From: Leptolinea tardivitalis
GTDB taxonomy: Bacteria > Chloroflexota > Anaerolineae > Anaerolineales > Anaerolineaceae
Assembly (NCBI RefSeq): GCF_001050275.1
Contig: NZ_BBYA01000010.1
Span: 248,001 to 312,000, forward strand
Direction of reading: 5' to 3'
DNA length: 64,000 nt
The translations under genes were made by a program, and so were the position numbers. The notes under the pieces are model-generated. The model saw only the letters and a program-made list of their open reading frames with translations. It was not told the DNA's origin and did no database searches. This document shows, piece by piece, positions 7,387-32,272 of the stretch (position 1 is its first letter; the number at the start of each line of letters is the position of its first letter).

Positions 7387-7429
7387 TAGATTTAAGGCAA
7401 ACGATCTTGATTCGTTTGCCTTAAATCTA
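7387..7429. repeat. 18-bp perfect inverted repeat at the 3' end of the pPIWI-RE operon
   Basis: Arms 7387-7404 and 7412-7429 are perfectly complementary, with a 7-bp loop (TCTTGAT). The right arm contains the TAG stop codon of the pPIWI-RE gene. There is no T-run on either side, so it is not a classical intrinsic terminator, though it may protect or process the mRNA 3' end. A copy of the left arm plus loop is found at 13621-13642. Confidence 0.7.
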
Positions 7430-10108: not shown

Positions 10109-10134
10109 ATTTTTTCCTTTCAATGGTCTAACGA

Positions 10135-13100
10135 TTAATTCCCATCCATACTGAACGAGCTGTTGTAATTACTAAAATCGAGTTGAACCCCAATCGGTGA
10201 TTGAAGTCCGTCATAAAAGGCCCCATACAATGCCCGTCCGACGTCGCTATTGGTGTAATTTAATAGACGCTCAATCATGGCTGCCAGGAGACTGTCACCA
10301 GGGTGGGCAACAAGATCGCCCTCAGAAGTTTTCTGACTATTAACCCAAGAGGCGTCCACAAAATAAGCTCTAAATGGAACTCCACCTCGCACCAACCGAC
10401 CGCAAGTTTGAATGACTGAACTTGCAGTGCTGGCACCGAGTTCTTTCTTATCCGTTTCTTCCATTAAACGATAGAATTTTCCTCTTTCCATTGCCTGCCA
10501 AGCGTTCCGAGCTTCGATTCGTAAGGCATTGACCTGGGCAAGAATATTCGAAGAATTCTTTGACCATAGATTATTTTCTGGATTTAGCCATTCATCAAGT
10601 TTATGGTTAATTCCAGCCACCATCGTCATTGCATCAAACGGCGGCGTCATGGGCCTGATTAGAAAATATATCGATCCATAAGCCGCTCTACCGGTTTTGG
10701 GACTGACAATGTTATATCCGCGACTGATTGCCCCCATCGGCGCGACAAGGATACGAGCCAGGTGACCGCTAGCTTCGACTTCACTCCGTTTGATCGCTTT
10801 ATACGGTCGCCAATCCCAATCTAAGGTTTCGTTGCTTCTAACGAGGGCATATACATCTTCTGCTAAGTCAGACTTAAGTGAGCTGCGCAGAATCGTTGCA
10901 GTTTGTTCGGCCTGTTCGTAAGAATTTACGATGAGCAAGATCCGAGCTCGATCTTCCCAATCTGCGTCGACCTTACTTAATTGGTCAAGTTTTTCTAGCT
11001 CTCTAACAAGGGGGGACATGAATTTGTCAGGGTGGCGGGCCAGAGCCAGGATCATTTGCTCCAGGTTCTCGCCCATTTCTTTGCCAGCACCTGACACCCG
11101 CAGGTAATGCACAGATTTCTTTTTGCTCCCCTTACTTTCGGTTGATTGGGGCAAATAAGTAAAAGTGCTTTTGCGAATTGCATCCTGGATCGAATTGTCA
11201 GGTTCGAGGATTCCAACAACTGGAACCGCAAAGTGGAATTTTGCTGAATCTGGCATCCAACTGGTTCCGGACATCGCCAATACGTTCGGACCGGCTTTTC
11301 CATCCAAATCCGATAAAAGATGGTCAAAGTTCTGAACAAAAAAGCGACCCACAGCTGCGTATTCGAAAACTGCTAGGCTGAGCACCTTACGAGCTGTATC
11401 TCCTTCTTCGGTCGTGCGGAATCCTCGCCAGCGACCCAGAGGTGGGGTAGGCAGGAGGCCGGCGAAAGATGGTGGTATGAGGGTTGGTCCTCCGTTTTCA
11501 CCGAATAACTCCTCAACATAATGCCATCCATAAAAGAGGCCGCGTAAATCACGATCTAGCGCTGATGCGACCAATCCGAGTTCAAGACGCCGTGTGAGCG
11601 TAGACATATCTTGGGGATTACCAGTGTTTTCGCTATCGCCTCGATTTTTTGATTTCGCTTCACCTCTTACCTTTATTTCATCCTGGATATGCTGTGGTAG
11701 ACCCTCCATTGTTTTCTTGATCCAGGCCGAAACACTCTTGTTTGTTGATGGATTAATTTCACCACGGCCATAAGATGCAATTTGTAGTGAAAGGAGTATC
11801 AGTTCGGATTTCTCATCGCGATTGCTAAACAATTCAGTCGATAGATCGGCTTGCTGCATCGAGATGAAACGTTCTTGGAGGGATTGATACAAATCCCTAA
11901 CCTCTTTAGGCGCATCCTCACCTTCCCATAAGCTGTACCCAGAAATACGGCCAGCGAGTTCGGATAGGATACGCAGCGATGTAAAAGGCCGGACAGATAA
12001 CCAATTTCGCAAATCCAAATTCCGTTCGAGCAAGCCTAAAAAGTTCCGCAATGCAGGCATGGTTTGGTCATACGATTGCCGCCAGCGATCCACATCAGTG
12101 CTTTCCCGAAATTTGCCACTGGGATAGTTGCTGATTTTTCGTAAAGTGTCTTGCAGCAATCCTCCTGCGCCTGTGTCATCTAAAATAAGATCTGGAGCCA
12201 ATAATTTATCAAACCATCCTTGTACGGAATCAATCTCATCCAGAATCACCAACGTTGATTGTTCGTAAACCAATAGCCATAAAGGGATTTGTCTATTATC
12301 CACTTGCGAAGGGACTTTGGCCTGGCCCAACCCGCCCATTGTTGTCACCCATATTGGGGAATCGATCATATCCCGATACACTTGTTGCATTGGACAGATC
12401 GAAAACAAAGGGCACAGAAAATGTTTCTTTCGATCGCTCTTATCATTTAATTCAAAAAGCTCATTGCATGGTTCGTTTCCTGGCTCCATGCTGCCCTCAA
12501 CAGTTTCGTCAATATTGGCAAGCCAATGCTTGACAAGGCAAGTGGTATCTAGAAATCTCAATCGCCATTGATCAGAAGCGATTGAAAATTCTTTTTGTCT
12601 GTACACGTTGATGAGATGAGAATCCCGCATCGTGGCACCGAGCAACGGGACCGCGACCGGAAAATCGTTATTTGCAAGCAAGTTATTGAAATATTCGGAC
12701 ATCCGTAGGACTTCGACAACATCTGCGACCACCAAAGTAACCCGTTGGCTCGGATGGTGTTGGGCGATATCAAAGGCGATCAAGGTAGCGATTGTACTTT
12801 TCCCGGATCCGACCATACCAGCGACATGAGTCATTCCTGAAATAGCTAACGCTTCTGTATTTACCTCGCTCAGACTTCCATCTGGACGTCTAGCTCGATA
12901 CCGTATCATTGAGTCAATGCGGTCAAGCCATTTGTTGGGGCGTTTATATCCCTGGCTTTGTTCTAGATGATCCATTTCTATAGCCAGTTCGCGCAATTGT
13001 TGATGTGAGTAGGTCTGCTTGGTTCGTTCAGGGTGCACCTTGAAACTGGAAACTGGATGTTTCCGTGCTTCTCTCAATATTTTTTCCGAAAAAACCACTT

Positions 13101-13599
13101 CACCCTTGTACTCTCGGTTATATGCGAATCCATATGATCCTTGAGAGGCAATCGACCGCTTTTCTTTCCTGAACGGTAATACCCCTGAAAACACTTCATC
13201 ATATACTTTTATTCTCTGTGTTTGTCTCCCGGTTCGTGAAAGCGGTTCTACCTCGTAATTTTCATCGCCGGGCAATCGATATACCCTCTTATTTTCAGGA
13301 TATTGAGCGTAGGTCGAAAAATCGAATTGCCAATCTCTTTTACTCGTCCGGTGGATGACTGCCCGATAATTTGCAAGCCAACGTTTTTGAATTTCATTCA
13401 GTTGCAGGTCAGCTAAAGCTGGCGTAACCAACCCTTGATTGAGAGCCCAAATGGTCATTGCTGGCTGGTCTTGTAATCCAAGCATTTCAAGTAGGCGGAG
13501 CCCCGTTTCCACTCTGATGAGGAGATTAAAACTTATCTCCTTATCGTTACTTTCGGTAGGAAATCGGGTTTTGAACAAATCCTGAAGTGAAGAATACAT
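10135..13599 (-). CDS. DinG-type superfamily 2 helicase of the pPIWI-RE module
   Basis: This 1,154-residue protein has a Walker A motif, GMVGSGKST, near residue 260; a Walker B/DExx motif, STLVILDEIDS, near 450; and a late motif VI, QTCGRLVRGG. Between motifs I and II four cysteines (DTTCL, EPCNE, FLCPL, SICPM) are placed like the iron-sulfur ligands of XPD/DinG helicases. The N-terminal 250 residues are specific to this family and match the expected pPIWI_RE_Z-type extension. In this module the helicase is thought to open duplexes or R-loops for the PIWI protein. The start at 13599 has GGAG upstream. The gene lies 53 bp after the nuclease gene and 26 bp before the PIWI gene. Confidence 0.82.
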   Translation of the reverse strand: MYSSLQDLFKTRFPTESNDKEISFNLLIRVETGLRLLEMLGLQDQPAMTIWALNQGLVTPALADLQLNEIQKRWLANYRAVIHRTSKRDWQFDFSTYAQYPENKRVYRLPGDENYEVEPLSRTGRQTQRIKVYDEVFSGVLPFRKEKRSIASQGSYGFAYNREYKGEVVFSEKILREARKHPVSSFKVHPERTKQTYSHQQLRELAIEMDHLEQSQGYKRPNKWLDRIDSMIRYRARRPDGSLSEVNTEALAISGMTHVAGMVGSGKSTIATLIAFDIAQHHPSQRVTLVVADVVEVLRMSEYFNNLLANNDFPVAVPLLGATMRDSHLINVYRQKEFSIASDQWRLRFLDTTCLVKHWLANIDETVEGSMEPGNEPCNELFELNDKSDRKKHFLCPLFSICPMQQVYRDMIDSPIWVTTMGGLGQAKVPSQVDNRQIPLWLLVYEQSTLVILDEIDSVQGWFDKLLAPDLILDDTGAGGLLQDTLRKISNYPSGKFRESTDVDRWRQSYDQTMPALRNFLGLLERNLDLRNWLSVRPFTSLRILSELAGRISGYSLWEGEDAPKEVRDLYQSLQERFISMQQADLSTELFSNRDEKSELILLSLQIASYGRGEINPSTNKSVSAWIKKTMEGLPQHIQDEIKVRGEAKSKNRGDSENTGNPQDMSTLTRRLELGLVASALDRDLRGLFYGWHYVEELFGENGGPTLIPPSFAGLLPTPPLGRWRGFRTTEEGDTARKVLSLAVFEYAAVGRFFVQNFDHLLSDLDGKAGPNVLAMSGTSWMPDSAKFHFAVPVVGILEPDNSIQDAIRKSTFTYLPQSTESKGSKKKSVHYLRVSGAGKEMGENLEQMILALARHPDKFMSPLVRELEKLDQLSKVDADWEDRARILLIVNSYEQAEQTATILRSSLKSDLAEDVYALVRSNETLDWDWRPYKAIKRSEVEASGHLARILVAPMGAISRGYNIVSPKTGRAAYGSIYFLIRPMTPPFDAMTMVAGINHKLDEWLNPENNLWSKNSSNILAQVNALRIEARNAWQAMERGKFYRLMEETDKKELGASTASSVIQTCGRLVRGGVPFRAYFVDASWVNSQKTSEGDLVAHPGDSLLAAMIERLLNYTNSDVGRALYGAFYDGLQSPIGVQLDFSNYNSSFSMDGN

Positions 13600-13652: not shown

Positions 13653-14747
13653 CTATGCCTTGGTAACTTCCCTCAAGAATGTGCTCATCAATTGGATCTT
13701 CGCTTGGGGGGCCAGTTTCTTTAATTTCTGAAGATACCCTGAAGTCATCCTTTCCCGGTAATCCGGGATGACGTAATAGAATTTCACGTCTTTCTTATAG
13801 GGCGGGCGAGATTGGCGCAACAAATTGCTCAGGGTAAATTCGCTGGCATAATCCTTGACATCAATTGCCCAGCGCATGTTTCCATTTTTCTCAACGAGCA
13901 GGTCATACCGGTCAGCCTCAGGCCATAATGCGATAGATACGCCCGGAATTTTGGCGAGTTCTCGATGCAACTCCAACTCCGGCAATCCTGGCAATTGAAC
14001 TCGTTTTCTGAAGGTCATTTTCAGTGTGCTTATTTCATTAGTGATCGCTCTTGCCTGAGCAAGGTCTACAATCTGCTCGCATAAGCCCTTCGTCGCGCAT
14101 CTGGGTTTTTCGTCTGCCCAAATCAATATTCCATTGCAGCGAGGGCAGAGCCAGTATTTCCCTTCATGAAGCATATTGGGAGATGGTTTTTCATAGAAGT
14201 CGCTAACTTTTCCCATTAATTGGATTGTTTCATTAGGTATATGGATGCCATCACTGATGTTGATCCATGGATTTTCAATTAGAAACCGTCGAAGGGTTAC
14301 ATAAGCGTCTTCCAATTCGGGGTGTTTTTGAACTTTTAGAACAGCGTCACGAATCTTACGGTTATCTAGAACAAGTTTGAGCTCGCTGGCATTGAATTTC
14401 TGATTACCAGAAAGGTCATCCAGATCGAGCAGCAGTTCTTCCACCTGGCTGGATATTTGTAGCTGCGAATCGATCATTGGGATATCAGGATCAATCCCAT
14501 CTGGCAGCTCAGAAAATGGCCACCAATCCTTGAGAGGCGTTTGAATCATTCGGAGAAACTCACTGATCGACTGGAATTTCCAATTACCTTGTTCTATGTA
14601 AGCACCAAAGAGCAGACCTCGGGCTCTGATTAGGGTGGATGGATACGGGTACATCCAATTATTTTCAGCAAGGGCAACCAACCCCGACATCAAAAATGAC
14701 AATGTTTCGTTGGATTTACTTGTATCTACGTAATTCTCTTCCTTCAT
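13653..14747 (-). CDS. PD-(D/E)XK nuclease with zinc ribbon, pPIWI-RE associated
   Basis: The product is 364 residues. A four-cysteine zinc ribbon (CPRC with a second CATKGLC pair) lies near residues 198-225. The C-terminal domain has LHRELAKIPGVSIALW, then RYDLLVEK and MRWAIDVKDYA, which gives an Asp...Asp-x-Lys catalytic set of the restriction-endonuclease fold near residues 275-298. The third gene of typical pPIWI-RE loci is a REase-fold protein of this kind. It is 23 bp downstream of the WYL gene and starts after AAAGGGG. I infer that it cuts DNA opened by the helicase and PIWI protein. The N-terminal 190 residues are unassigned. Confidence 0.78.
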   Translation of the reverse strand: MKEENYVDTSKSNETLSFLMSGLVALAENNWMYPYPSTLIRARGLLFGAYIEQGNWKFQSISEFLRMIQTPLKDWWPFSELPDGIDPDIPMIDSQLQISSQVEELLLDLDDLSGNQKFNASELKLVLDNRKIRDAVLKVQKHPELEDAYVTLRRFLIENPWINISDGIHIPNETIQLMGKVSDFYEKPSPNMLHEGKYWLCPRCNGILIWADEKPRCATKGLCEQIVDLAQARAITNEISTLKMTFRKRVQLPGLPELELHRELAKIPGVSIALWPEADRYDLLVEKNGNMRWAIDVKDYASEFTLSNLLRQSRPPYKKDVKFYYVIPDYRERMTSGYLQKLKKLAPQAKIQLMSTFLREVTKA

Positions 14748-14770: not shown

Positions 14771-15742
14771 TTAGATTCCATAAACGCCTGCTACGCTCTT
14801 GATTTCATCAATACATTCTTGGCGTAAACTTTCTGGAGAAAGAACTTCAGCGCCACTCCCGTATTGCAACACCCAACGTTTTACTTCACCAAGGCCACCA
14901 GTTTTCAGGTGTAGGATTAGGCTTCCATCCTCAAGTTCTTCAACCTTCTGCGATGCATGCCAATTCCGTTCACGGATATATCGTGCGGTAACAGCGTTAA
15001 ATTTGATCGATACATCAGTTGCCTCACCACCTCGGTCAGCCTGGAAGGCACTGCCCATCCAATCTGAGATCGAGAATTTCGCATCCCGAATAAATTTTTC
15101 TGGCAAAATTTTTAAGTTTTCAATTCGACTCACCAGAAAGGTGCGAAACTCATTGCGCAGTTTATCGAAAGCGATAAGATACCAATCTCCCCTAACGTTA
15201 TTTAGGTGGTATGGCATAACCGTTCGTTCTGTATATTCACCACGATATGCAGCGTAATATCGAATCCACAAACATTGACTTCCGTAAATTGCATGGTGGA
15301 TATCCAATAAGAATTGTTCATTTGCTGAGATCAACATTGGCGCAGAGAAGGTGTAATGCGATCGAAGCGTATCCATATCAACTGTTACTGGGCCTTTGAC
15401 ACCTTTGGAAATCTTTTCAACTGCCGAGCGCAGGGAAGATTCCAAGCTGGTTCCCAGATACCTTTTTGAAATTTCTACACTCAGGAAAAAAGCTAATAAT
15501 TCGCCTTCAGTTACAATCATTCCCGGTAAAACCCAAGTTTTATCAGAATAATACCAACCGCCTCGAACACGGTCGAATTCGATTGGAGCTCCCAGACGAT
15601 TTATCATAAAATCTCGATCGTTAAATATGACGCGCCGGCTTACTTCAAGGGATTTCGATAGTCGATTTGCATTGGGATACTCATCGTCTCTGATCCGACG
15701 ATCAATTTCCATGATTCGTTCAAGTTGTTGCCTCTGAGACAT
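14771..15742 (-). CDS. WYL-domain transcriptional regulator
   Basis: This 323-residue protein has an N-terminal winged helix-turn-helix (residues 1-65; NRLSKSLEVSRRVIFNDRDF) and a central WYL-type domain (LWIRYYAAYRGEYTERTVMPYHLNNVRGDWYLIAF split over residues about 160-200), followed by a C-terminal extension. WYL proteins such as BrxR and CapW are known repressors of defence operons that bind inverted repeats near the promoter. A perfect palindrome lies 46 bp upstream of this start, and the same core lies upstream of the AddAB-like operon. The gene is first in the pPIWI-RE operon. I infer that it autoregulates this operon and also controls the AddAB operon. Confidence 0.85.
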   Translation of the reverse strand: MSQRQQLERIMEIDRRIRDDEYPNANRLSKSLEVSRRVIFNDRDFMINRLGAPIEFDRVRGGWYYSDKTWVLPGMIVTEGELLAFFLSVEISKRYLGTSLESSLRSAVEKISKGVKGPVTVDMDTLRSHYTFSAPMLISANEQFLLDIHHAIYGSQCLWIRYYAAYRGEYTERTVMPYHLNNVRGDWYLIAFDKLRNEFRTFLVSRIENLKILPEKFIRDAKFSISDWMGSAFQADRGGEATDVSIKFNAVTARYIRERNWHASQKVEELEDGSLILHLKTGGLGEVKRWVLQYGSGAEVLSPESLRQECIDEIKSVAGVYGI

Positions 15743-15787
15743 AATTTACTTTCCCTTTCTATCATCCATGATACAAGTATTGAGGAA

Positions 15788-15812
15788 CGGAGTGCACACA
15801 ACGTGCACTCCG
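15788..15812. promoter_or_regulatory. palindromic operator of the WYL/pPIWI-RE operon
   Basis: The arms CGGAGTGCAC (15788-15797) and GTGCACTCCG (15803-15812) are perfect complements around ACAAC. The core AGTGCACACAACGTGCACT recurs at 22531-22549 with one change in the spacer. It lies 46 bp upstream of the WYL start codon, where a repressor would cover the promoter. The probable regulator is the WYL protein. Confidence 0.75.
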
Positions 15813-15864
15813 AGTAAGTTTTGCACCCTGAAATTTTTCATTATAAGGAAAAAGCCCAGTATCT

Positions 15865-18800
15865 TCATCCGATTTTAGCAATCTCGATTCGACCATGATC
15901 ATCAAGAAAAATAATTCGGGTCTGGGCCTTTTGGCCAATCAGCGTTTCGACCGCCCCCGAATACCTGCGCATTTGGCGTGAATATTGCCGGATCAAATCG
16001 TCTCGTTCCTTCACACTTCGGATGGAATCCGTCTTAAAATCAACGATCTGCCACCCCGAAGGCGAGTCATATAACAGGTCTATGTAGCCTGTTTCTGCAT
16101 GATCATCAACCCTGCGGGAGTAGGGTAGCTCGTGATATCGCTGCGCTGCAGCATCAATCTCACTCCGCAATGGATGGTTTCGCAATCGTTCCAGGTATTC
16201 GACGGCATGGCGGACCGCTGTAGATTGTTGGACCGGATGGGCTAAACCGGCGTTTAACGCAGCGGTTTCTAAAAGAGGCAGCAGCTGCGGGTCCCCGGGG
16301 AACAACCACAGTTCAATGGCTTTGTGAACCATCTGTCCGACGACGCCCGGCGGAATGGTTTCGGCGGAGCCGGTCGCCCGCCAGGCATGCATCTCCTCGG
16401 GCTCGTCTTCGTGGATCACAGCGGCTTCAGGTTCCAACAGGGAAGGATAGAGCGGGGCGAGATCGGCTTCCTCGTGGGAGGGGGGGTGCACCGCTTCGTT
16501 GGCTGCTAGGCCGCCCGCTTCTGCTGAAACCGCGCAGGCGCGCACCTTTTGCCCCGAATTCAACGGAAGCAGCATAGCAGTTCCAGATTGTTGAACCAGC
16601 GTATCTGCATCAACCTGAGCTGCGGTGCATAAATCGCCGAGCCAAGCTTTGGCCTGCCATTCCCCTTTGGAGGTTGGCGTGGAATGTCCATTGATGATCA
16701 GTTTATCCTTGGCACGTGTCAGTGCAACATACAGGAGCCGCAGGGACTCTGCCTCGTCCTGTTTTTGGTTCTCCCACTTCGCAAGGCGATAGATCATGGG
16801 CGGCGGGTCCAGCTTAAAGGACAGACCTATCTGCGGCGATAGGTAGATTGCCTCGCTTCCTCCTCTAGGTTCCCGGCTGGCATCTGCCAGTACGACGACC
16901 GGAAATTCAAGCCCCTTGGATTTGTGGATAGTCATCAGCCGCACAGATCCTTGGGCTTCGGCCGGCGCTTCGCCTTCACGCGCTCCCGCATCATTGATTG
17001 TCGCCAGGTATTCAAGAAAATCGCGAACATTGATCTGGCCGCTGGACTGGGCGTCAGTAAGCAGTTTATCTAAATTACGCCACAGCCGACCTCCGGTTCC
17101 ATTACCGTCTTCCACGGCCAGGATAGAGCGGTAATCCGTGATGTCCACCAGTTTTTTCAGCAGGTCGGCGACCGTGATGCGATCTACTTGAGGCAAAAGC
17201 TGGTTCAGAATATCCCTCACGCGGACGGCGCGGGTACGATCGGCATCCTCCAGCATTTCCAGGTCGCCTTGCAGCGCCGTCCAATAAGGAATCGGAACGT
17301 CCTCTTGCCAGCGTAATTGGTACAAGGCTGCATCCGTCAATCCAAAAGCTGGGGAACGTAAAAGGCCGGCCATGGCAAGATCATCCGCCGGGTCCGCCAA
17401 TGCACGAAGGATATTGAGCACATCCCGAATTTCTGGTCGGTCATAAAACCCACGGCCGGCGACGGTGACAAACGGGATTCCTGCATCTTCGAATGCATTT
17501 TCATAGGCCGCAAAACCAGTTGAAGCGCGTAAAAGCAGGGTGACGTCATCCCAGGTACGAATTTGCTTTTGCTCTTTCAGTTCCAGCAATCGTGCGGCCA
17601 GGGCTCGTGAAGCCAACGGTCTTGCTGCAACGGTATCTTCACCCGCGCCTAGAATAAATTCAATGTGCGGATGGCTGATATATTCGGGTTCTGTTTTGCG
17701 CACCGCGTGAAGAGGAGAGAATGGTACATAATATGGGCGGGAGGTATCGTCCGCGGTGCCCATCACCGTTGTCAACAGGTCGCCAGTAGCTTGTAGCAGT
17801 GGCTCGTGGGCACGGTAGGTTTGATCCAGGTCAATCACCAGACCTCCCTGGATGCGGACGCGCTGTTGAATAGATCGGAATACGGTGACATCCGCGCGGC
17901 GGAAGCGATAAATGCTCTGGCGCGCATCACCCACCACGAATAATCGCCCAGGGGCACCAGCCAGGGCTTCAACAATCTGGCGCTGCCGCTCATTGGTGTT
18001 CTGGAATTCATCGACCAGCAGGCTGGCTATTTCTGCTTGCCAATGTTGTCGGACTTCAGGGATTTTGAGCAAGCGTGCTGCCCCGCTCTCGAGGTCATCA
18101 AAATCTAGTGCACGACGCTGACACAATGCATTCTGATATGCAGAAGCGAGCAGCCCAAATACGGCTTTGATGATGGGATATAAGCTTAAAAAGCGGTTTT
18201 CACTTTCACGGTCCGGCGGAGAATCATTTGCCCCTTTTCCCCCAACGATGGGATTCAAGCACTCATCGTAGGCGGCTTGTACCTCTGCAACGATCGCTTT
18301 TGCCCGGCTGGTTTTGCTGCCAATGTTGCCTTTCATTTTTTCACGCCTGGCTTTATATAAAAAACCGGCACACGCTACGGGATCATTTTGGGCAAGTGCA
18401 TTTTCAGCATCACTCCATAGGGCCAATAATTCTTGCACCTGCTGCGTGAGCTTATCCCCGGCATCTTGCAGTAAGCTGGGCTGACTAAAACTCCGTAATT
18501 CCTGGATACATCCATAGATCGTTTCGTGCTGCATCCCGTCTCGAATGGCCCGGTTCACAACTTGAACGCTGTCGAAGCTTTTTTCAAAGGTTTCTTGGGC
18601 TTCCAGGCGGTGTTCCAGGAGAAATCCGAGTAGACCTCTCAGGCTAGCGATATCAAAATGCTGAAACAAAATAGAATATTCAGGTTGACCAGCCAAAACG
18701 GTGATGGTTTCGTCAATCATATTCATGCGCAGTGCGGCGGTTAAACCCTCATCCAGGACATCAAACTTGGGGTCAATTTCTGCTTCTGCAGGATGAGCGC

Positions 18801-19164
18801 GAAGAATTTCAGCGCATATACTATGAATGGTGCCAATCCGGGCAGCATCCATTTCTGAATTGACAGTAATCCACCGCTGGCGTTCTTCTTCGGTTGAAGC
18901 CTGCTTCAGGAGGTCCGTTAATGCCTGGCGTACCCGCGAGCGCATTTCCCGGGCTGCCTTTTCGGTGAACGTCACAGCCACAACCGCCCGAGGTGATAAT
19001 CCATCTGCCAATAAAGAAGCATACCGCGCTACCAGAGTACGAGTTTTCCCACTGCCGGCTCCGGCGGTGACCACAATATCCCGGTTCCTTTCAATTGCAG
19101 CATCTCGTTGGTCCGGGGTTAAACCAAAGGAAGTAATCACTCGTTCACGTAATATTTCGGTCAT
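15865..19164 (-). CDS. addA: AddA-like UvrD-family helicase-nuclease
   Basis: The 1,099-residue protein begins with a UvrD-type N-terminus: LTPDQRDAAIERNRDIVV and the Walker A motif AGAGSGKT near residue 36. Further superfamily 1 motifs include FDDLESGAARLL, LLVDEFQNTN, VVGDARQSIYRFR and LLYVALTRAKDKLI. The C-terminus holds a RecB-type nuclease: ETGYIDLLYDSPSGWQIV followed by DFKTD. Length and order match AddA/RecB. AddA unwinds DNA with AddB and cuts one strand at DNA ends. The gene follows addB by 2 bp. In Bacillus-type systems AddAB serves recombination repair; here its position in a mobile defence region and shared operator suggest a dedicated role. Frequent in-frame motifs argue that it is intact. 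Confidence 0.88.
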   Translation of the reverse strand: MTEILRERVITSFGLTPDQRDAAIERNRDIVVTAGAGSGKTRTLVARYASLLADGLSPRAVVAVTFTEKAAREMRSRVRQALTDLLKQASTEEERQRWITVNSEMDAARIGTIHSICAEILRAHPAEAEIDPKFDVLDEGLTAALRMNMIDETITVLAGQPEYSILFQHFDIASLRGLLGFLLEHRLEAQETFEKSFDSVQVVNRAIRDGMQHETIYGCIQELRSFSQPSLLQDAGDKLTQQVQELLALWSDAENALAQNDPVACAGFLYKARREKMKGNIGSKTSRAKAIVAEVQAAYDECLNPIVGGKGANDSPPDRESENRFLSLYPIIKAVFGLLASAYQNALCQRRALDFDDLESGAARLLKIPEVRQHWQAEIASLLVDEFQNTNERQRQIVEALAGAPGRLFVVGDARQSIYRFRRADVTVFRSIQQRVRIQGGLVIDLDQTYRAHEPLLQATGDLLTTVMGTADDTSRPYYVPFSPLHAVRKTEPEYISHPHIEFILGAGEDTVAARPLASRALAARLLELKEQKQIRTWDDVTLLLRASTGFAAYENAFEDAGIPFVTVAGRGFYDRPEIRDVLNILRALADPADDLAMAGLLRSPAFGLTDAALYQLRWQEDVPIPYWTALQGDLEMLEDADRTRAVRVRDILNQLLPQVDRITVADLLKKLVDITDYRSILAVEDGNGTGGRLWRNLDKLLTDAQSSGQINVRDFLEYLATINDAGAREGEAPAEAQGSVRLMTIHKSKGLEFPVVVLADASREPRGGSEAIYLSPQIGLSFKLDPPPMIYRLAKWENQKQDEAESLRLLYVALTRAKDKLIINGHSTPTSKGEWQAKAWLGDLCTAAQVDADTLVQQSGTAMLLPLNSGQKVRACAVSAEAGGLAANEAVHPPSHEEADLAPLYPSLLEPEAAVIHEDEPEEMHAWRATGSAETIPPGVVGQMVHKAIELWLFPGDPQLLPLLETAALNAGLAHPVQQSTAVRHAVEYLERLRNHPLRSEIDAAAQRYHELPYSRRVDDHAETGYIDLLYDSPSGWQIVDFKTDSIRSVKERDDLIRQYSRQMRRYSGAVETLIGQKAQTRIIFLDDHGRIEIAKIG

Positions 19165-19166
19165 AA

Positions 19167-22100
19167 TTAATACTCCGGTTCAAAACGCCAGCACCATTGA
19201 GCGCCGGGGCAGTAAGATGGGCAACCAACGCGCGGGGTTTTCGAAGGAAACTCCGCTGAGCGGATGCCGTTCACAATGCGTACCAAGTGAGCCATCATGA
19301 CTTCAATGGCAGCATCGACACCCTGGTTGGTATCGGTTTTAAATTTACTGAGCTTGAGGGAACCCGCTTCGGCGCCGAGGATTTTCCAGTATATTCCTTC
19401 CACGGGTATGCCCAGTTTACGGGCGTCGCGAACTGCTAATGCATAGATCGGCAACTGCAAACGATGCCCGTCTTTCAAATCGTTAGCTGTGAGATGCATG
19501 CTGCCGGATTTATAATCAATCACCCGCAGCTGCCCAGACGAATTTCTGTCCACACGGTCTACCACCCCCCGAATTCGCAAAACTTCAGATCCCAAGTCAA
19601 TGATCAATGGGGGATAGTCGCCTTTTCCAAACCCCATTTCAAATTCAATCGGCGTCCAATCAGTCTCAGCTACCAGCGCTTGTATAGTCTGGCGCAACGT
19701 ATCCAAAAGTTCTGCCTTCTCATTTTCCCAGAGCGTTGAGGGGCGAAACCCAAATTGCCTTGGGGCGTCAGAAAAAACCTGTCCTGCGATAATTTCCAAA
19801 CTGGATAAAACGGCCTCAATGTCCTTTGGGTCAGATGCGTTGCGGTATGTGTCTTCCAGGATTTTATGCAGCATTGAACCCAACTGACCCGGTTCGAGAC
19901 CTAACTGGGGTACTGCACGCGCTTCTAAGCCTAAGGCGGTGCGAATATAGAATTGGTAAGGGCATGTACCATAGTATTCCAGCCGGGATGGGCTCCAGGT
20001 ATGCTCGGATGAATATCTTTTTTCCATGAATGGAGCGATCGCTTCTACATATCCTTCATGAGGTCCTTTGGGATGCTTGGCCCGCCTAGCTTTCACCACC
20101 TCACGAGCATGGCGCAAACCATTCCAACGTTCATGGAGAAAATCGTATCGTTGGGGCAGGCTTTGCCGGCGCACAGCGGTAAAAAGCAGTTCTTGGGTCG
20201 AGGCAGCCTCAACCAATGGTTGCGGGTCATCAGGGCGTACTGTCTCAACTGCTTCTTTGCTAAATAATCGCTGCACGGCTTTCCAAAAAGTCGATTCCTC
20301 CCATTTCTCGCCGTCTTCTGAGAGGTAAGGGCGTGTGATCAACAAGTGCCTGTCGGAACGGGTAACAGCCTGGTAAAAAAGCCCTGCCTGCTCGCGTTGC
20401 AAGCGTTGATCTAAACCTAATGCAGCACGCAGAGGTTCATCTAGAAAAGGATCCGGGTGTTCGTTAGCGGGAAATAGGCCTTCGGATAAACCTAGCAAAG
20501 CGACCGCCTGAAGGCGCAATCCGCGCGCCTCGACCATGCGTCCCACCAGTAGAGCTGGTTTTCCTGACACACCTGGTTCGCGTTGTCCGACGCCCTCTAA
20601 AGTTCCTTGCAGATCTATGAAAAACTGGGCATAATCGACTACCCGCTCACCAGCCACCACTTCGCTCAAAACGAGAGCTCGTAAGGTTTCTCTAAAAACT
20701 TCACAGGCGTTCTGGTCTCTCTCGGTGGTGGCATTTTGATAAAACTGGAGTTGGTCCAGAAGGTCTTCCAGCCAGGTAATCCATTCGGTCTGAGAGCAGC
20801 TGTGATCGGGCGGCGTGATGCGATTGAACAGCGCCTCCATGATCTGGCGAAGCTGATTGGCTTTCGCACCGCGCGGCAAACCTGGTAATATGCGTTCGTC
20901 GTCTACATCGGATTGTTCCTCGAACGAATGAGGAGCAAGACGATCCCAGGTTTCTTGCCATTGGTCACGACCTTCCACAATTTGAGCGACACGACTGACC
21001 AATTCCAACTGATCAGCGATATCCGAGCTGATGGACAGGTCAAAATAGGGGCAACGCAGGACATTGACCAACGCCCGTGTATTGAAATTTTTGGAGGGTA
21101 AAGCAAGCAAATTGAGCAATGCGGTGATCGCCGGCGATTCACTCAAAGGTTCGTCTTGTGTAAACCGAATGGGTATCCCAAACTCCTCTGCGCAGGCTTT
21201 GAGTTGTGGATGATAGACCGATGGGTTGGGGGTGAATATCATACAACTGGATAATGGGATGCCTTCGCGTATAACCAACCGTTTTATCCAGCGCAGGGCT
21301 TCTCGGGCTTCATCGGCTGGAGACCGCGCTTCGAGCAGGATGGGTTTTATCGCCGGTTGGATAACGCTGCCGCTGGATTCAAAGAGGTTTTGCTCGATGT
21401 GCAAGAGATCAGCAGGTAAGAAGGGTGGATTGTTTAAAGAAATGTGGTGGGGAGATAATTCCTGGATGAGTTTATCCAAGTCTTCGAGAAAACGCCGGTG
21501 CGCCGGGCGTTTGGATCCGATGATGCCAGGAAAAGTAATTAGAATTTCACTGACCTGTGTAGATAATAGTTTTACCGCTTGATGTTGTGCGCCATTCAAG
21601 GAGTCGAACCCATCTACGACCAGGAGTTTGATTGAAGAAGCGACATGAGGATGGCCCTTGAGAGCTTCGACTGCGAGCCAGCTGATCCCTTCCGGGTCAG
21701 CCCAATTCAAGTCTCTCAAGCGAGTTTGATAAAGAGAATATAAAAGGGCCAGTTCTTGTTGGGCCGTGGTTCCCGATCGGGTGAATTCGATGAATTGATC
21801 TGGATAGATCAGCGATCTTTTTAATTCTGCAAAGGATTCCCGCAATGCCAGGATAAAGCCTGGCATCCTTTGTAAAGGAGAAAAATGAGGTAATCCGCCT
21901 TGTTCAACCGCGAGATCAACCACCTCTTGAATCAGCCGGTGGAGGAGTGGTGAAGATGCGACGGGGACATGCATTTGAGAATGTTCCAAGATATTTTTGT
22001 ATAAATCGCCAAAGGTTCCAACATAAGTACCGATGGCGCCTTCACAATCCGCAACTCTTCTTCGAAATGCAGAGGCCTGCAAACGATCTGGAACGACCAC

Positions 22101-22205
22101 CCAAACAGAGGCAAGCGGTTCATTTGCTCTTAGTTCTTGTATCCGTTTAATACAAGCTTGTGTCTTGCCAGTTGCAGGTGGGGCTACAATTAATTTAGTG
22201 GTCAT
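19167..22205 (-). CDS. addB: AddB-like helicase-nuclease subunit
   Basis: This 1,012-residue protein starts with a Walker A motif (VAPPATGKTQACI, residues 7-19) and a degenerate helicase core. It ends with a RecB-type nuclease: CPYQFYIRTALGLE, IRGVVDRVDR and LRVIDYKSGS give the Asp and Asp-x-Lys residues. The last residues CPSYCPGAQWCWRF supply three cysteines which, with the earlier CPYQ cysteine, form the iron-sulfur signature of AddB. The gene lies between the 83-residue leader gene and addA, with 17- and 2-bp gaps, so the three form one operon. The partner is the AddA-like product. Confidence 0.86.
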   Translation of the reverse strand: MTTKLIVAPPATGKTQACIKRIQELRANEPLASVWVVVPDRLQASAFRRRVADCEGAIGTYVGTFGDLYKNILEHSQMHVPVASSPLLHRLIQEVVDLAVEQGGLPHFSPLQRMPGFILALRESFAELKRSLIYPDQFIEFTRSGTTAQQELALLYSLYQTRLRDLNWADPEGISWLAVEALKGHPHVASSIKLLVVDGFDSLNGAQHQAVKLLSTQVSEILITFPGIIGSKRPAHRRFLEDLDKLIQELSPHHISLNNPPFLPADLLHIEQNLFESSGSVIQPAIKPILLEARSPADEAREALRWIKRLVIREGIPLSSCMIFTPNPSVYHPQLKACAEEFGIPIRFTQDEPLSESPAITALLNLLALPSKNFNTRALVNVLRCPYFDLSISSDIADQLELVSRVAQIVEGRDQWQETWDRLAPHSFEEQSDVDDERILPGLPRGAKANQLRQIMEALFNRITPPDHSCSQTEWITWLEDLLDQLQFYQNATTERDQNACEVFRETLRALVLSEVVAGERVVDYAQFFIDLQGTLEGVGQREPGVSGKPALLVGRMVEARGLRLQAVALLGLSEGLFPANEHPDPFLDEPLRAALGLDQRLQREQAGLFYQAVTRSDRHLLITRPYLSEDGEKWEESTFWKAVQRLFSKEAVETVRPDDPQPLVEAASTQELLFTAVRRQSLPQRYDFLHERWNGLRHAREVVKARRAKHPKGPHEGYVEAIAPFMEKRYSSEHTWSPSRLEYYGTCPYQFYIRTALGLEARAVPQLGLEPGQLGSMLHKILEDTYRNASDPKDIEAVLSSLEIIAGQVFSDAPRQFGFRPSTLWENEKAELLDTLRQTIQALVAETDWTPIEFEMGFGKGDYPPLIIDLGSEVLRIRGVVDRVDRNSSGQLRVIDYKSGSMHLTANDLKDGHRLQLPIYALAVRDARKLGIPVEGIYWKILGAEAGSLKLSKFKTDTNQGVDAAIEVMMAHLVRIVNGIRSAEFPSKTPRVGCPSYCPGAQWCWRFEPEY

Positions 22206-22222
22206 GGGCGTGCTCCAGGAAG

Positions 22223-22474
22223 TTAAGATTTTTCCGGTTGGGGTGAGTCTTTCAAATGTTTCGATACTGCCAAAAGCAGCTCAGTGGCGATTGCCATAGC
22301 CTCTTGCGGGGATAAATTGACGGCTACTTTGAAGGAGGGTTGTAAAAGATCTTCTTCAGAGGGCGTTGTTTTTCTGATTTGCAGAATGATGGCATCATCA
22401 TTGATGTAGGTGTGAACGGCGCCACCATTTTTCAGGGTAAAAGTTTGTGCTCGCATATTTTTGGGTGTGGTCAT
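22223..22474 (-). CDS. 83-residue protein leading the AddAB operon
   Basis: This small acidic-to-neutral protein starts MTTPKNMRAQTFTLKNGGAV. It has a predicted beta-strand N-terminal half (TFTLKNGGAVHTYINDDAI) and a helical C-terminal half (PQEAMAIATELLLAVSKHLK). It has no known motif. It is the first gene after the palindromic operator at 22526-22554 and lies 17 bp upstream of addB. Candidate roles are a modulator or inhibitor of AddAB or an antitoxin-like partner; none is shown by the sequence. Confidence 0.6.
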   Translation of the reverse strand: MTTPKNMRAQTFTLKNGGAVHTYINDDAIILQIRKTTPSEEDLLQPSFKVAVNLSPQEAMAIATELLLAVSKHLKDSPQPEKS

Positions 22475-22525
22475 TAATTCCCCCTATGGTTTATCACTAA
22501 AAAGATCTATTAATAATTGTACGCT

Positions 22526-22554
22526 CATTTAGTGCACACAGCGTGCACTAAATG
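22526..22554. promoter_or_regulatory. palindromic operator of the AddAB operon
   Basis: The arms CATTTAGTGCAC (22526-22537) and GTGCACTAAATG (22543-22554) are perfect complements around ACAGC. The 19-bp core is the same as the one upstream of the WYL gene apart from one spacer base. It lies 52 bp before the start of the 83-residue gene; a possible -10 (TACAAT on the minus strand, 22517-22522) adjoins it. It could also affect the divergent qat promoter. Confidence 0.75.
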
Positions 22555-22681: not shown

Positions 22682-24598
22682 ATGTGGCCAGATAATGAAA
22701 CCACTTTAGACCTTTTAGGATTTAAAGTCCATGCCGATCTAATTAAATCAGTAGTTATGGATGATAAACTTCTTCCAATAACAGTTGGAATTTTTGGCGA
22801 TTGGGGAAGCGGAAAAACAAGCATTATGAAAATGCTTGAGCATGACCTAGACCCTGAAAATTATCCTGAAAAATCTCAAGAGAGAGATCGACTAAACGGA
22901 GTAGTTTGTCTTTATTTTAATGGATGGCTATTTGAAGGATATGATGATGCTAAGTCTGCTTTACTTAGTACAATCCTAATTCAACTTGGGAAAAATAAAA
23001 GGTTTGGTCCAAAGGTAAAAGAAAGTATTGTATCTTTATTGGAATCAGTGGATTGGATGCGTCTTGCCCGTCTTGGTTTTCGAGAAGTGGCAGTTCCAGC
23101 TTTACTAGCTTATCTCACAGGGGGTGTGAGCCTAATTCCATCTATTGTTGATGCAAGTAAGTCGTTGATTGGAATCGGAGAAAACAAAGCAGGAAGCGGA
23201 AACGAGTCAAAAATTGGATGGGAGGATGTTCTAAAAGGTGAAGGTAAAAAAGCTGGGCCAATGGATGTTAGGATGTTCCGAGAACGGTTTTCAAAGATGT
23301 TGGCCGATTCCGATATTCGATCTTTAGTAATATTAATTGATGATTTGGACAGATGTAGTCCTCAGAGAATTATTGATAACTTAGAAGCAATAAAACTTTT
23401 CCTTAGTGTTGACCGAACCGCTTTTGTAATCGGGGCCGATCCTCGTATAGTCAGACATGCCATATCTTCTATCTATAAACCAGAAGAAATTCGTGCCGAG
23501 TCTGGTGAATATGAACCTCAAACCGATATTGTTAATGATTACCTTGAGAAGTTAATCCAAGTTCCATATCGTTTACCACGCCTTTCCCCTGCTGAAGTAC
23601 AAACTTATATGTCGCTGCTTTTTTGCAACCAGGCATTAGATTCCGACGCTTTTGGAAAATTACATGCCGTATATGAAAAACACTGTTCTGAAGATCGTTA
23701 TAGTGTTTTTGGCTATGGAGCTATCCAATCAGCTTTTGGGGGAACACTAATGGAAGAGCTAACTACCAATTTAAAGTTTTGCGCCTCAGTATCGCCGTTG
23801 ATTACCGAGGGTCTCAAGGGTAATCCTCGACAAGTAAAAAGGTTCCTTAATGCTTATGTTTTGCGCAGAAAATTGGCTGATGTAGCTCGGTTATCTAATC
23901 TAAAAGATGATATTTTAGTCAAGCTTATGGTATTGGAATATACGGAACCAAAACGATTTAACCAATTATACAAGTGGCAAGCATCTCAAGATGGTTTCCC
24001 AATAGAAATAAAAAAGCTAGAACAAATTTTGTGTTTACCGACTGGCAAATTGGATAATGAAAGTGATGCTAAAGAAGTAGCGGCGGAGTGGGGTGGTTTA
24101 TTTTTGAGAAAATGGATAACAATAGAGCCTCGGCTTGGAGAAGTAGATTTAAGGGATTACTTCTGGATCGCACGTGACCGACTTCAATCTACACTTTCAG
24201 ATGTTACATTAGTACCACCCTTTATCCGCCAACTTTTTGATGATCTTATTTCTGATAAACCTGGTCGAATATCAACTGCTTTACATTCCACACACGAAAT
24301 TAGCACTGATGAAATTGATTTACTGTTAGCTCTATTCGAACATCATGTTGAACAATATCCAGATGATAAAAAAGGTTATGACGGTCTGAGATTATTAATT
24401 GAAAATGATATATCTAAGAGCGCTGAGATGTTGGCTAAACTTCTTACATCAATCCCACCCGATTCAATCCCGCCGGCTGTTGGGGTAGATTTACTTATAT
24501 TAATAAAAGTAAAACCAAATTTAGAGGATATATTTAAAAGTCCACTTGATTATTTGCGCACTACAAAATCGATGATCGCAGCTGCTCTTCTTAATTAG
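22682..24598 (+). CDS. qatA: QatA: KAP-family P-loop ATPase of the Qat defence system
   Basis: The 638-residue protein has Walker A GDWGSGKT at residues 39-46 and Walker B LVILIDDLDRCSP near 217-229. A hydrophobic insertion (ALLAYLTGGVSLIPSIV, about residues 140-156) is typical of KAP NTPases, which often sit at the membrane. FIGADPRIV-like and NPRQVKRFLN segments complete the ATPase core. With the next three genes it forms the known anti-phage set QatABCD. The mechanism of that system is not settled. AAAGGGAG precedes the start. The whole operon is visibly richer in A and T than the flanking genes, which suggests a separate origin. Confidence 0.88.
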   Translation: MWPDNETTLDLLGFKVHADLIKSVVMDDKLLPITVGIFGDWGSGKTSIMKMLEHDLDPENYPEKSQERDRLNGVVCLYFNGWLFEGYDDAKSALLSTILIQLGKNKRFGPKVKESIVSLLESVDWMRLARLGFREVAVPALLAYLTGGVSLIPSIVDASKSLIGIGENKAGSGNESKIGWEDVLKGEGKKAGPMDVRMFRERFSKMLADSDIRSLVILIDDLDRCSPQRIIDNLEAIKLFLSVDRTAFVIGADPRIVRHAISSIYKPEEIRAESGEYEPQTDIVNDYLEKLIQVPYRLPRLSPAEVQTYMSLLFCNQALDSDAFGKLHAVYEKHCSEDRYSVFGYGAIQSAFGGTLMEELTTNLKFCASVSPLITEGLKGNPRQVKRFLNAYVLRRKLADVARLSNLKDDILVKLMVLEYTEPKRFNQLYKWQASQDGFPIEIKKLEQILCLPTGKLDNESDAKEVAAEWGGLFLRKWITIEPRLGEVDLRDYFWIARDRLQSTLSDVTLVPPFIRQLFDDLISDKPGRISTALHSTHEISTDEIDLLLALFEHHVEQYPDDKKGYDGLRLLIENDISKSAEMLAKLLTSIPPDSIPPAVGVDLLILIKVKPNLEDIFKSPLDYLRTTKSMIAAALLN

Positions 24599-24606
24599 GT
24601 GATAAT

Positions 24607-25338
24607 ATGGGAACTTCAAAAGGGTATCAGGCACCTACAACACCCCAGTGGGGAAAGCAAAAGGGTGACGTGACAAGGGCTTCACGGAACGGAGCTGTGT
24701 CTCAAGAAGTTGCGCGAGATATAGTTCGTGGTTATATTCAAGCTAATGGTGGGTCTGAAACGGTATCGCAAGGTGGTGGGACAATTGGTGGAAGTCGTTC
24801 AGTACAAAAAACAGGGCAAAGGTTAGCTGGATTTGTAAGTTCTGTAGCCAGTCGTGGTTTAGAAAAAGCTTTACAAGATGAAGGCCTTTCAGATCTTATT
24901 GGTCATCCCGCAAAGGAAGTGGCATTAGCTTTAGCTGACCGATTATGCGAAGATGGTAGTACTCTTGATGAAGTTGATACCCGCAATGCTCTTTCTGACT
25001 TAATGGACGAATTACTAGAAAAAGCAGAAACCTACGAAGAAGTCAAGGAAATATTTGAAAAAACAATCCAAGTTAATGAATTGGGAAATTTATTGACAAG
25101 ATTTTTTGGCCATTATTTATATCGACAATTTTGTCGAGTGTTTTACGAGAGGTTGGTAACAAGACATGGGGAAAAGAAAGCATCTGGTTTTTTAACCAGC
25201 ATCAAAGATATGATCTCATCTTTAGTTCGTTTGAAGACCTTTGATAAAGACCTCTCTAAGATAAATTGGATAGGAGAGGAAGGGGCTTCTCTTGCAGATA
25301 GTATTTTAGAGCAGACATATAAAGTCTTTGATAGGTGA
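24607..25338 (+). CDS. qatB: QatB: Qat defence system protein
   Basis: This 243-residue protein begins MGTSKGYQAPTTPQWGKQKG, a disordered start of the style seen in QatB proteins. It has a Gly/Gln-rich linker near residues 45-70 and a helical C-terminal domain (residues about 90-240). It has no catalytic motif. It lies 8 bp after qatA and overlaps the qatC reading frame start region. It is assigned by synteny with the ATPase, QueC-like and TatD-like genes. QatB is required in the characterised Qat system but its activity is unknown. Confidence 0.8.
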   Translation: MGTSKGYQAPTTPQWGKQKGDVTRASRNGAVSQEVARDIVRGYIQANGGSETVSQGGGTIGGSRSVQKTGQRLAGFVSSVASRGLEKALQDEGLSDLIGHPAKEVALALADRLCEDGSTLDEVDTRNALSDLMDELLEKAETYEEVKEIFEKTIQVNELGNLLTRFFGHYLYRQFCRVFYERLVTRHGEKKASGFLTSIKDMISSLVRLKTFDKDLSKINWIGEEGASLADSILEQTYKVFDR

Positions 25339-25342
25339 GAAG

Positions 25343-26665: not shown

Positions 26666-27415
26666 ATGAATTGCGTACTAATAGACACCCATTGCCATTT
26701 AGATTTCTATAAGAATCCTGAGCGGGTAGCTCAAAACATGGAAATGCAGGGTGGTTATGTAATTTCAATGACTAACCTTCCAAGTCACTATGTTTTTAGT
26801 CAACCTCATGTTAAACCTTTTAAAAAAGTTCGCCTTTCTTTAGGTTTACATCCGCTAGAAATAGAGCGACATACAAACCGTGAATTTGAAATTTTTTCCG
26901 AAATGGTTGACACCACCTCATATATTGGAGAGGTGGGGTTAGATTTTTCACGCGAATGGAAATCTAGTTCTGAAAGACAAATTCGTAGTTTGAATTTTGT
27001 ATTAGGCCTACTAAATCAAAAACCAAAGTTTGTTTCTCTGCATTCAAGAGGTGCAGAAAAAGAAGTCTTAGATATATTAATCGATAATAAAATTCAGGTC
27101 GCAGTTTTTCATTGGTATTCGGGCTCGATTACTACCCTTGATGTGATACTTCAGAAGGGGTTTTATTTTTCTATAAATCCATCAATGATTAAGTCCAATC
27201 AGGGTAGAAAAATAATTTCTTACATTCCACGCGATCGAATATTAACTGAAACAGATGGTCCATTTATATCCATCTACAATAAACCAGTCGAGCCAACCAG
27301 TGTTGTCGATGTTATCCGCTTTTTGTCCCAACAATGGGAAATATCTTATGATGAAGCAATGTGCCAAATATATTCAAATTTCAAAATTCTAATGGATAAG
27401 ATAATCCAAAAATAA
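26666..27415 (+). CDS. qatD: QatD: TatD-family metal-dependent nuclease
   Basis: The 249-residue protein carries the TatD metal-binding set in order: DTHCHLD (residues 7-13), GEVGLDFS, SLHSRG, VFHWYSG and TETDGPF. TatD proteins are TIM-barrel DNases with two metal ions. It is shorter and less hydrophobic than housekeeping TatD and is fused into the operon by direct abutment: the qatC stop ends at 26665 and this ATG starts at 26666. It is the nuclease arm of QatABCD. Confidence 0.86.
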   Translation: MNCVLIDTHCHLDFYKNPERVAQNMEMQGGYVISMTNLPSHYVFSQPHVKPFKKVRLSLGLHPLEIERHTNREFEIFSEMVDTTSYIGEVGLDFSREWKSSSERQIRSLNFVLGLLNQKPKFVSLHSRGAEKEVLDILIDNKIQVAVFHWYSGSITTLDVILQKGFYFSINPSMIKSNQGRKIISYIPRDRILTETDGPFISIYNKPVEPTSVVDVIRFLSQQWEISYDEAMCQIYSNFKILMDKIIQK

Positions 27416-29775: not shown

Positions 29776-29859
29776 TGTGAAGACTCCTTTTTGTGTTTTG
29801 AAAGATTATTTCTGTGGATACCAGCAGCCCTGCTGGGCATTGTTACTAATCTCGACGAC

Positions 29860-32001: not shown

Positions 32002-32143
32002 AAAAACATCCTTACCAACAAAATCACAATTTGTGAAATATCCAAAATACAGGCGGTTTCCTGGCCCAATCATTTCTAAGGATGTTTTCCACATCCCATG
32101 CAAAAGAAAAGCCTCAAAAGCCTTCCTGTTCAATCAACGTCAG

Positions 32144-32216: not shown

Positions 32217-32272
32217 CTTTTCATTCCTACAAAGCAAGTACAATTTTTCTCCGACATGAAAAGCCAGCAGGT

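Follow-up and report, generated by a model that had tools for sequence, protein, structure and literature searches.

Two neighbouring operons in the genome of Leptolinea tardivitalis raise the question of whether a single regulator with a WYL domain controls both a pPIWI-RE system and an AddAB helicase-nuclease, and what the one would then have to do with the other. The stretch of DNA that was analysed, referred to as the window, comprises 64,000 nucleotides (positions 248,001 to 312,000 of contig NZ_BBYA01000010.1) of a genome that is 3.69 Mb in size and 99% complete; the nearest named relatives are metagenome-assembled genomes of the Anaerolineaceae/Chloroflexota. On the minus strand of the window, one operon (15742 to 7427) encodes the WYL protein, a restriction endonuclease (REase) with a Y domain, a DinG-type helicase with a Z domain and the pPIWI-RE protein, and a second operon (22474 to 15865) encodes an 83-amino-acid protein, p83, followed by AddB and AddA. 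The explanation favoured here, with moderate confidence, is that the two operons form one regulon under a DriD/PafBC-type activator responsive to single-stranded DNA (ssDNA), in which the WYL protein and AddAB would be the core and the effectors would be exchangeable.

Two palindromes shared by two operons

An earlier note on this DNA had described two palindromes, both perfect, one with 10-bp and the other with 12-bp arms, which have 5-bp spacers and a common core, and the sequence bears this out. Site 1 reads CGGAGTGCAC-ACAAC-GTGCACTCCG and site 2 reads CATTTAGTGCAC-ACAGC-GTGCACTAAATG, and the core common to both is AGTGCAC-N5-GTGCACT. Site 1 lies 45 bp from the start of the WYL gene and site 2 lies 51 bp from the start of p83; the gaps of 46 and 52 bp given previously differ by one base in counting. 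The 19-mer common to the two sites would be expected 0.02 times in the shuffled window, and a search of the window with up to three mismatches returned three matches to it, which represent two places, one of them read again on the other strand. Across the whole genome (3,687,036 bases), the 17-mer core occurs as two perfect copies and at one other place with two mismatches, and the pattern AGTGCACN5GTGCACT occurs exactly twice, in agreement with the previous statement that there is no third copy.

Co-occurrence of the palindrome and the WYL protein

A sample of 147 genomes of the family was searched for AGTGCACN5GTGCACT, with the reversed pattern as a control. The pattern was found in 10 of the 147 genomes, at 13 sites in total, and the reversed control was found in none of them. 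Nine of these sites lie before a WYL gene (the gene is broken in G715 and, in G234, truncated where the contig begins), three lie before p83/addB (in the window, G007 and G283), and the remaining site, in G153, is situated at a contig end, directly before ATGTCG. In a separate protein search (expectation value (E) up to 1e-30, the threshold also used for AddB), a relative of the WYL protein was found in nine of the 147 genomes, all of them among the ten that carry the site. The exact site is therefore present in 9/9 genomes with the WYL protein and in 1/138 of the others, namely G153 with its contig end (Fisher p 1.5e-13). In the window and in G258, the same operator stands before both operons, with one mismatch on the addB side of the latter; in G007 and G283, it stands before addB as well as before the WYL gene. 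Because the ten genomes with the site include all nine with the WYL protein, the prediction that the neighbouring WYL protein uses both palindromes as operators, and that the two operons constitute one regulon, is well supported; the comparison thus sustains the earlier proposal that the WYL protein co-regulates AddAB and pPIWI-RE.

A wider scan of a collection of 84,980 species, made with two peptide patterns only and hence not a full census, returned 18 WYL loci. The site was present before the WYL gene, with at most three mismatches, at 13 of the 18 loci, and at nine it was exact in the symmetric pattern. At one locus (L047, 10971), a copy of the palindrome with one mismatch lies directly after the WYL coding match instead of before it.

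Promoter layout at the predicted operators

Offsets were counted from the end of AGTGCACN5GTGCACT in the direction of transcription, and hexamers were scored against the six-base -10 consensus. A -10-like hexamer lies exactly at +9 in 13 of 15 WYL-side sites, the window counted (5 of 6 matches in four and 4 of 6 in nine), and in all four addB-side sites, each with 5 of 6 matches, although two of the four are near-identical. The sequence 16-18 bp upstream of the hexamer matches the -35 consensus at 0-2 of 6 positions. In eight readings taken in the opposite direction, 5 of 6 matches at +9 were found in none and 4 of 6 in one; under mononucleotide shuffling, 5 of 6 matches at +9 has a p of 0.02-0.03 per promoter (three addB-side promoters). 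Because the site lies upstream of a -10-like hexamer and over a -35 region that lacks the consensus, the promoters look activator-dependent.

Among characterised WYL regulators, DriD is described as binding sites whose centre falls on the -35 region and whose distance from the -10 is constant, the -35 consensus being matched at 1-2 of 6 positions (PMC12340889). The BrxR box, as reported, is downstream of the predicted -10 (PMC9122601), and the palindromes described for CapW overlap the -10 (PMC9122588). The predicted operators of the window share the arrangement of the first, over a poor -35 at a fixed -10 distance, and are neither on nor downstream of the -10.

Relationship of the WYL protein to known regulators

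In a sequence search of the PDB, the WYL protein matched PafBC (7.5e-17), the DriD entries 9pfq and 7tzv (~2e-10) and BrxR 7qfz (7e-4), all over the WYL and WCX domains; by sequence, the protein is nearer to PafBC and DriD than to BrxR. The N-terminal part presumably forms a helix-turn-helix (HTH), for which a Pfam HTH search gave no match. In PafB, mutation of R181, Y196, R204, R208, R211 and R214, singly or in sets, is reported to have abolished ssDNA binding (PMC11804915), and in our reading of the PDB-search alignment these residues map to R173, Y188, R196, R200, L203 and R206. Across 16 WYL sequences (L052-L054, which are broken or partial, were left out), the four arginines R173, R196, R200 and R206 are kept in all 16, and position 188 is Tyr or Phe.

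DriD of Caulobacter crescentus resembles the window in its WYL-WCX similarity, in a palindrome over a poor -35 and in the fixed distance to the -10, as far as it is described in PMC12340889, where activation is stated to require ssDNA bound to the WYL domain. Its described targets include the DNA-processing genes recJ, dnaG and bapE, whereas in the window a mobile AddAB and a defence operon are predicted to be controlled, and its half-sites (ATACGAC-N7-GTCGTAT) differ from AGTGCAC-N5-GTGCACT. Furthermore, DriD is activated by ssDNA, and the WYL protein of the window, for which the same is a prediction, carries Leu at one PafB-type Arg position. PafBC, a mycobacterial WYL activator and the best PDB match, shares four of its five ssDNA-binding arginines and the WYL-motif Tyr with the window protein; however, PafBC is described as a heterodimer or a fusion (PMC11804915), it differs at position 211, and the window has just one such gene and a palindrome that is symmetric, as would suit a WYL protein acting as a homodimer.

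Association of the WYL protein with AddAB

AddB was detected in 36 of the 147 family genomes and was absent from 111. It is present in 9/9 genomes with the WYL protein versus 27/138 of the others (p 1.4e-6 by genome and 2.4e-4 by genus, neither fully corrected for kinship). The AddAB genes adjoin the WYL gene in the window, G258, G007 and G283; in G715 they lie approximately 3.4 kb downstream and on the same strand, and in G310 they are 1.6 kb away and divergent. Within the family, the constant core thus appears to be the WYL protein plus AddAB, a patchily distributed helicase-nuclease. The AddB of the window is the sole AddB match in the source genome, three congeners (G001-G003) gave no match at E up to 1e-30, and AddAB is thus not resident in the genus. 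Elsewhere in its genome, G258 encodes another AddB (36% identical), which groups with copies of its own genus, and it has kept the island copy too.

The WYL protein of the window is 77-80% identical to those of G007 and G283 (80% to that of G007), and the corresponding identities are 45% for AddB and 51% for AddA. Because the WYL-linked AddB copies fall in separate parts of an AddB tree (three rows of which have long branches, and in which 500/500 label shuffles were as low), one kind of WYL regulator probably serves different AddAB lineages, a reading drawn mainly from the contrast between 80% identity in WYL and 45% in AddB. A single, vertically inherited WYL-AddAB cassette was rejected on that contrast and on the scatter in the AddB tree.

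Two further observations concern the AddAB genes of these relatives. The AddA frame of G258 (L037, 5243-8236) aligns to residues 1-983 of 1099 only, so that its C-terminal nuclease part is interrupted, either by mutation or by an assembly error. A protein of 785-794 amino acids is encoded directly upstream of addB in three WYL genomes (L130, 8579-10963; L131, 12582-14939; L132, 1581-3938), and the L130 copy had no match in Pfam or PADLOC.

pPIWI-RE and other cargo at the insertion site

The arrangement of the window is repeated in G258 (HGW-Chloroflexi-3), with p83, addAB, pPIWI-RE and both sites, and this part of the proposed linkage stood: a related pPIWI-RE locus that carries AddAB and the palindrome does exist. 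In contrast, G007 (Ornatilinea SM3-B12.1) and G283 (L039) have addB-addA-WYL and both sites without pPIWI-RE, and the pPIWI-RE domain PF18155 was found in two of the 147 family genomes, G000 and G258. Related genes border the cassettes on both sides in the window, G007 and G283 (window 6664-7140 and 27505-28818), which makes this a common insertion hotspot; G258 shows the first of these flanks only.

In a sample of 400 Chloroflexota genomes, 12 had pPIWI-RE, the window included. None of the 11 other loci had a BLAST match to the AddB or WYL protein of the window, or a palindrome, within stretches of 4.7-20 kb, some contigs being short and a very distant WYL protein being able to escape such a search. 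In one of them, L074, a 348-residue open reading frame gave a weak AddA-like match (E 0.002) that covers 91 residues. An AddB match was absent from 10 of these 11 genomes, which are 80-99% complete, and G642 gave a partial match; a RecC match was absent from all 11 and from the four island genomes in a search whose E. coli control was positive and which did not extend to AdnAB. Twenty-six plasmid records contain the Z helicase, and in the six that were inspected no AddB match was found near the pPIWI-RE locus. pPIWI-RE and AddAB are therefore not always linked, and pPIWI-RE would be optional cargo. The larger seven-gene defence system that had been suggested is not supported, given G007 and G283 and the 11 other loci that lack a nearby AddB or WYL match.

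In one inspected plasmid, from Hymenobacter (L146, 15861-19049), a 1062-residue helicase gene follows the gene of pPIWI-RE type and has a local AddA match (E 3e-12). In another, from Microvirga (L145, NZ_CP069357.1), the pPIWI-RE triad is accompanied by a divergent gene annotated as WYL, and a gene of approximately 10.2 kb annotated as an RNaseH-domain protein stands in the pPIWI-RE position.

Other cargo accompanies the site elsewhere. A Druantia-type DruE and BrxA lie beside the same site in G721 (L137), with neighbours of the same size in G715 (L130); BREX-type PglX-PglZ-BrxL lie beside the site in G153 (L140), where the contig ends before WYL; and G310 has an Mrr_N gene beside the site. 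A radical SAM/SPASM gene with a small partner was seen in the hotspot or adjoining the WYL gene in L039 (8759-10494), L036 (7676-9411) and L135 (13712-15329), the family matching having covered L039 and L135.

Gene content of the window

The features are collected in Table 1. AddA combines a UvrD helicase with a nuclease, and AddB combines an ADDB_N domain with a nuclease motif and C-terminal cysteines (residues 748, 995, 999 and 1005) that presumably hold an iron-sulphur cluster, as in known AddAB; different from known AddAB are the patchy distribution, the location in a defence hotspot and the apparent control by a WYL protein. The REase (Y), DinG/Z helicase and pPIWI-RE genes stand in the same order, with close spacing and with all the Pfam domains, as in the three-gene system described by Burroughs et al. 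in 2013 (PMC3702460), to which the window adds the WYL head gene and the adjacent AddAB; the main text of that paper is without WYL, AddA or RecB. Likewise, the text of the BrxR survey (PMC9122601) makes no mention of AddA, RecB or PIWI.

p83 belongs to no family in Pfam or PADLOC, and its AlphaFold model is of low confidence (mean predicted local distance difference test score 62) and too weak for a fold search. p83 was found in the window and G258 only, among the loci compared at that stage, and was rejected as a conserved partner on these grounds.

Operator 2 is located between divergent operons, p83-addB-addA and a complete QatABCD (QatA, QatB, QatC and QatD). Qat is a possible further member of the regulon: on the plus strand, towards Qat, a perfect TATAAT is present 19 bp from the operator 2 core, ten bases beyond +9. 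No Qat genes were found at the corresponding place in G007 and G283, nor in the short stretch before the contig end of G258. Beyond Qat (27505-33765), SSB-like, DnaA_N-containing and ParA-type genes lie beside the defence cargo and point to an integrated mobile element, and farther on (36842-41083) an OLD-like AAA/TOPRIM gene, an IrrE-type peptidase and the C-terminal part of a type I restriction protein add more genes of defence type. With regard to carriage by phages, one scan of viral contigs with WYL alignment gave no confirmed relative.

Table 1. Features of the window, with predicted regulatory elements (positions are those of the window)
Feature	Position	Strand	Basis or remark
pPIWI-RE protein (X, MID and RNaseH-fold domains)	7427..10123	-	Pfam, PADLOC
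pPIWI-RE associated DinG-type helicase with Z domain	10135..13599	-	PADLOC PprDinG, Pfam
pPIWI-RE associated Y domain + REase	13653..14747	-	PADLOC PprRE, Pfam
WYL regulator, 323 residues, heads the pPIWI-RE operon	14771..15742	-	Pfam PF13280 (WYL), PF25583 (WCX); PafBC/DriD-like over WYL-WCX
-10-like hexamer AATACT (4 of 6), WYL promoter	15776..15781	-	9 bp downstream of AGTGCACN5GTGCACT
Palindromic operator 1 (predicted)	15788..15812		10-bp arms, 5-bp spacer; before the WYL gene in relatives too
AddA	15865..19164	-	UvrD helicase + PD-(D/E)XK nuclease
AddB	19167..22205	-	ADDB_N, PD-(D/E)XK nuclease motif, C-terminal cysteines
p83, 83-residue protein	22223..22474	-	No Pfam or PADLOC match; 75% identical copy in G258
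-10-like hexamer TACAAT (5 of 6), p83 promoter	22516..22521	-	9 bp downstream of AGTGCACN5GTGCACT
Palindromic operator 2 (predicted)	22526..22554		12-bp arms, 5-bp spacer; between p83-addB-addA and divergent qatABCD
QatABCD operon (KAP NTPase, QatB, QueC-like, TatD)	22682..27415	+	PADLOC QatA, QatB, QatC; TatD domain

Discussion

The favoured explanation can be stated as a sequence of steps. The WYL protein would bind both palindromes and so link the WYL-pPIWI-RE and p83-addB-addA operons in one regulon; promoter geometry, sequence relationship and conserved residues argue that it is most probably a DriD/PafBC-type activator, which would occupy the -35 region, where the consensus is lacking, always 9 bp from the -10. 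Binding of ssDNA by the WYL domain would then lead to recruitment of RNA polymerase. AddAB is a helicase-nuclease that attacks DNA ends, and the effectors exchanged in the hotspot would be pPIWI-RE, as found in two genomes, and the Druantia-type gene or the BREX genes found beside the site in others. AddAB converts duplex DNA into ssDNA, and because it does so, it may generate the signal of the regulon and thereby raise its own expression and that of its partners. This last part, in which AddAB both attacks DNA ends and generates the signal, with ssDNA from invading or broken DNA acting through the WYL activator to yield more AddAB and more effector, comes from AddAB biochemistry and is offered tentatively, as a rather doubtful extension of the regulon.

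Several observations weigh against this explanation or parts of it. Five of the 18 WYL loci of the wider scan (L047, L048, L049, L051 and L053) have no site before the WYL gene, the sites at four loci (L040, L044, L045 and L046) are degenerate with 2-3 mismatches, and the second site, before p83/addB, is present in four genomes only, of which G007 and G283 are near-identical there. The 9/9 association of the WYL protein with AddB is partly phylogenetic, four of the nine genomes belonging to genus g15. The AddB of G310 is only 28-30% identical, that of G234 is interrupted and lies approximately 10 kb away, and those of G100 and G721 are on a different contig from the WYL gene; joining of these contigs (WYL-196/183-...-addB), which end there, is only a possibility. 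Outside the family, an AddB match was found in three of nine WYL genomes, one of them in pieces, and none was found in G752, which has the exact site. With regard to the promoters, the WYL promoter of the window has a better hexamer (TATCAT, 5 of 6) at +17, G258 offers further hexamers with 5 of 6 matches at +17 and +18, and at two Acidobacteria sites the hexamer stands at +6/+7. In the protein, the residue aligned with PafB R211 is Leu, and among the 16 sequences it varies between Leu, Ser, Ala and His but is never Arg. Lastly, repression too could be exerted from a palindrome placed over the -35 region.

That possibility leads to the most serious alternative, less probable in our judgement and yet of real weight, in which the regulon is the same and the WYL protein acts as a repressor, in the manner of BrxR or CapW, so that a ligand made during infection would release both operons. 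BrxR and CapW, WYL regulators found beside diverse defence genes, are indeed described as repressors (PMC9122601, PMC9122588); BrxR binds inverted repeats of 10-11 bp that are separated by 5 bp, like those of the window, and another of its boxes lies within its island, and CapW binds palindromes of 19-24 bp. The site of the window also adjoins the WYL gene itself, as autoregulation would have it. However, the BrxR and CapW sites are on or after the -10 in those accounts, whereas the site here is 9 bp upstream of a -10-like hexamer and covers a -35 region with 0-2 of 6 matches, which gives the promoter its activator-dependent look, and the protein is nearer to PafBC and DriD than to BrxR (7e-4). 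Promoter layout and sequence relationship are what incline us towards the ssDNA-responsive activator.

The remaining two alternatives concern what the palindromes and AddAB are for, and both are improbable. Under one of them, the seven genes are a dedicated system in which AddAB makes guide fragments that are loaded into pPIWI-RE, as the earlier note had supposed. The operator is common to both operons in the window and G258, the only two family genomes with PF18155, G258 retains its island AddB besides the one elsewhere, and RecBCD is reported to shape the small-DNA pattern of some prokaryotic Argonautes (PMC10269773). Yet the same report describes RecBCD as not required for guide biogenesis by CbAgo, the 2013 paper predicts RNA guides for pPIWI-RE (PMC3702460), G007 and G283 retain WYL-AddAB with both sites in the absence of pPIWI-RE, and the other Chloroflexota loci and the inspected plasmids lack nearby AddB, save for the AddA-like match in the gene after pPIWI-RE on one plasmid. 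As co-occurrence fails outside the window and G258, AddAB as a general guide supplier for pPIWI-RE was rejected; for these two genomes guide supply stays an improbable reading, and the supposition finds no comparative support. The other alternative, if anything slightly less probable still, holds that the palindromes are RNA hairpins, terminators or sites of another regulator, and that AddAB is an ordinary repair enzyme that happens to lie beside a defence island. Many bacteria do use AddAB for repair, and site 1 scores as terminator-like on the plus strand; however, no run of T follows it on the transcribed minus strand, and neither the invariant AGTGCAC core nor the +9 spacing nor the co-distribution with the WYL protein would be explained. 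Ordinary repair also sits poorly with the absence of AddB from the three congeners and from most of the family. A terminator was rejected, as site 1 is terminator-like on the plus strand only and three such places are found in the stretch against 2.8 expected.

WYL control of defence islands and ssDNA-responsive WYL activators are each already known, separately. No report of WYL, AddAB and pPIWI-RE in combination was found among the papers listed in the literature searched, most subscription journals lying outside its scope; passages of PMC10957082 contain no link between AddAB and WYL, and those of PMC4012209 and PMC7641849 contain none between WYL and PIWI. What is new is the DriD-like layout, with the site placed at +9 before a -10-like hexamer and over a non-consensus -35.

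BrxR and CapW are repressors, whereas the ssDNA-liganded activators PafBC and DriD serve DNA-damage responses, and the locus appears to connect these groups, as its promoters have a DriD-like layout although they lie in a defence island and are tied to an ssDNA-producing helicase-nuclease. With its defined operator, its pair of promoters and a few named residues, the locus allows an ssDNA-triggered, defence-specific response to be tested, and it provides a regulatory entry point to pPIWI-RE, which is little studied, the 2013 prediction being the sole paper found under that spelling in the literature searched. If the proposed circuit is true, it would act as a mobile alarm for DNA ends whose outputs can be exchanged and which has been coupled to several different AddAB lineages.

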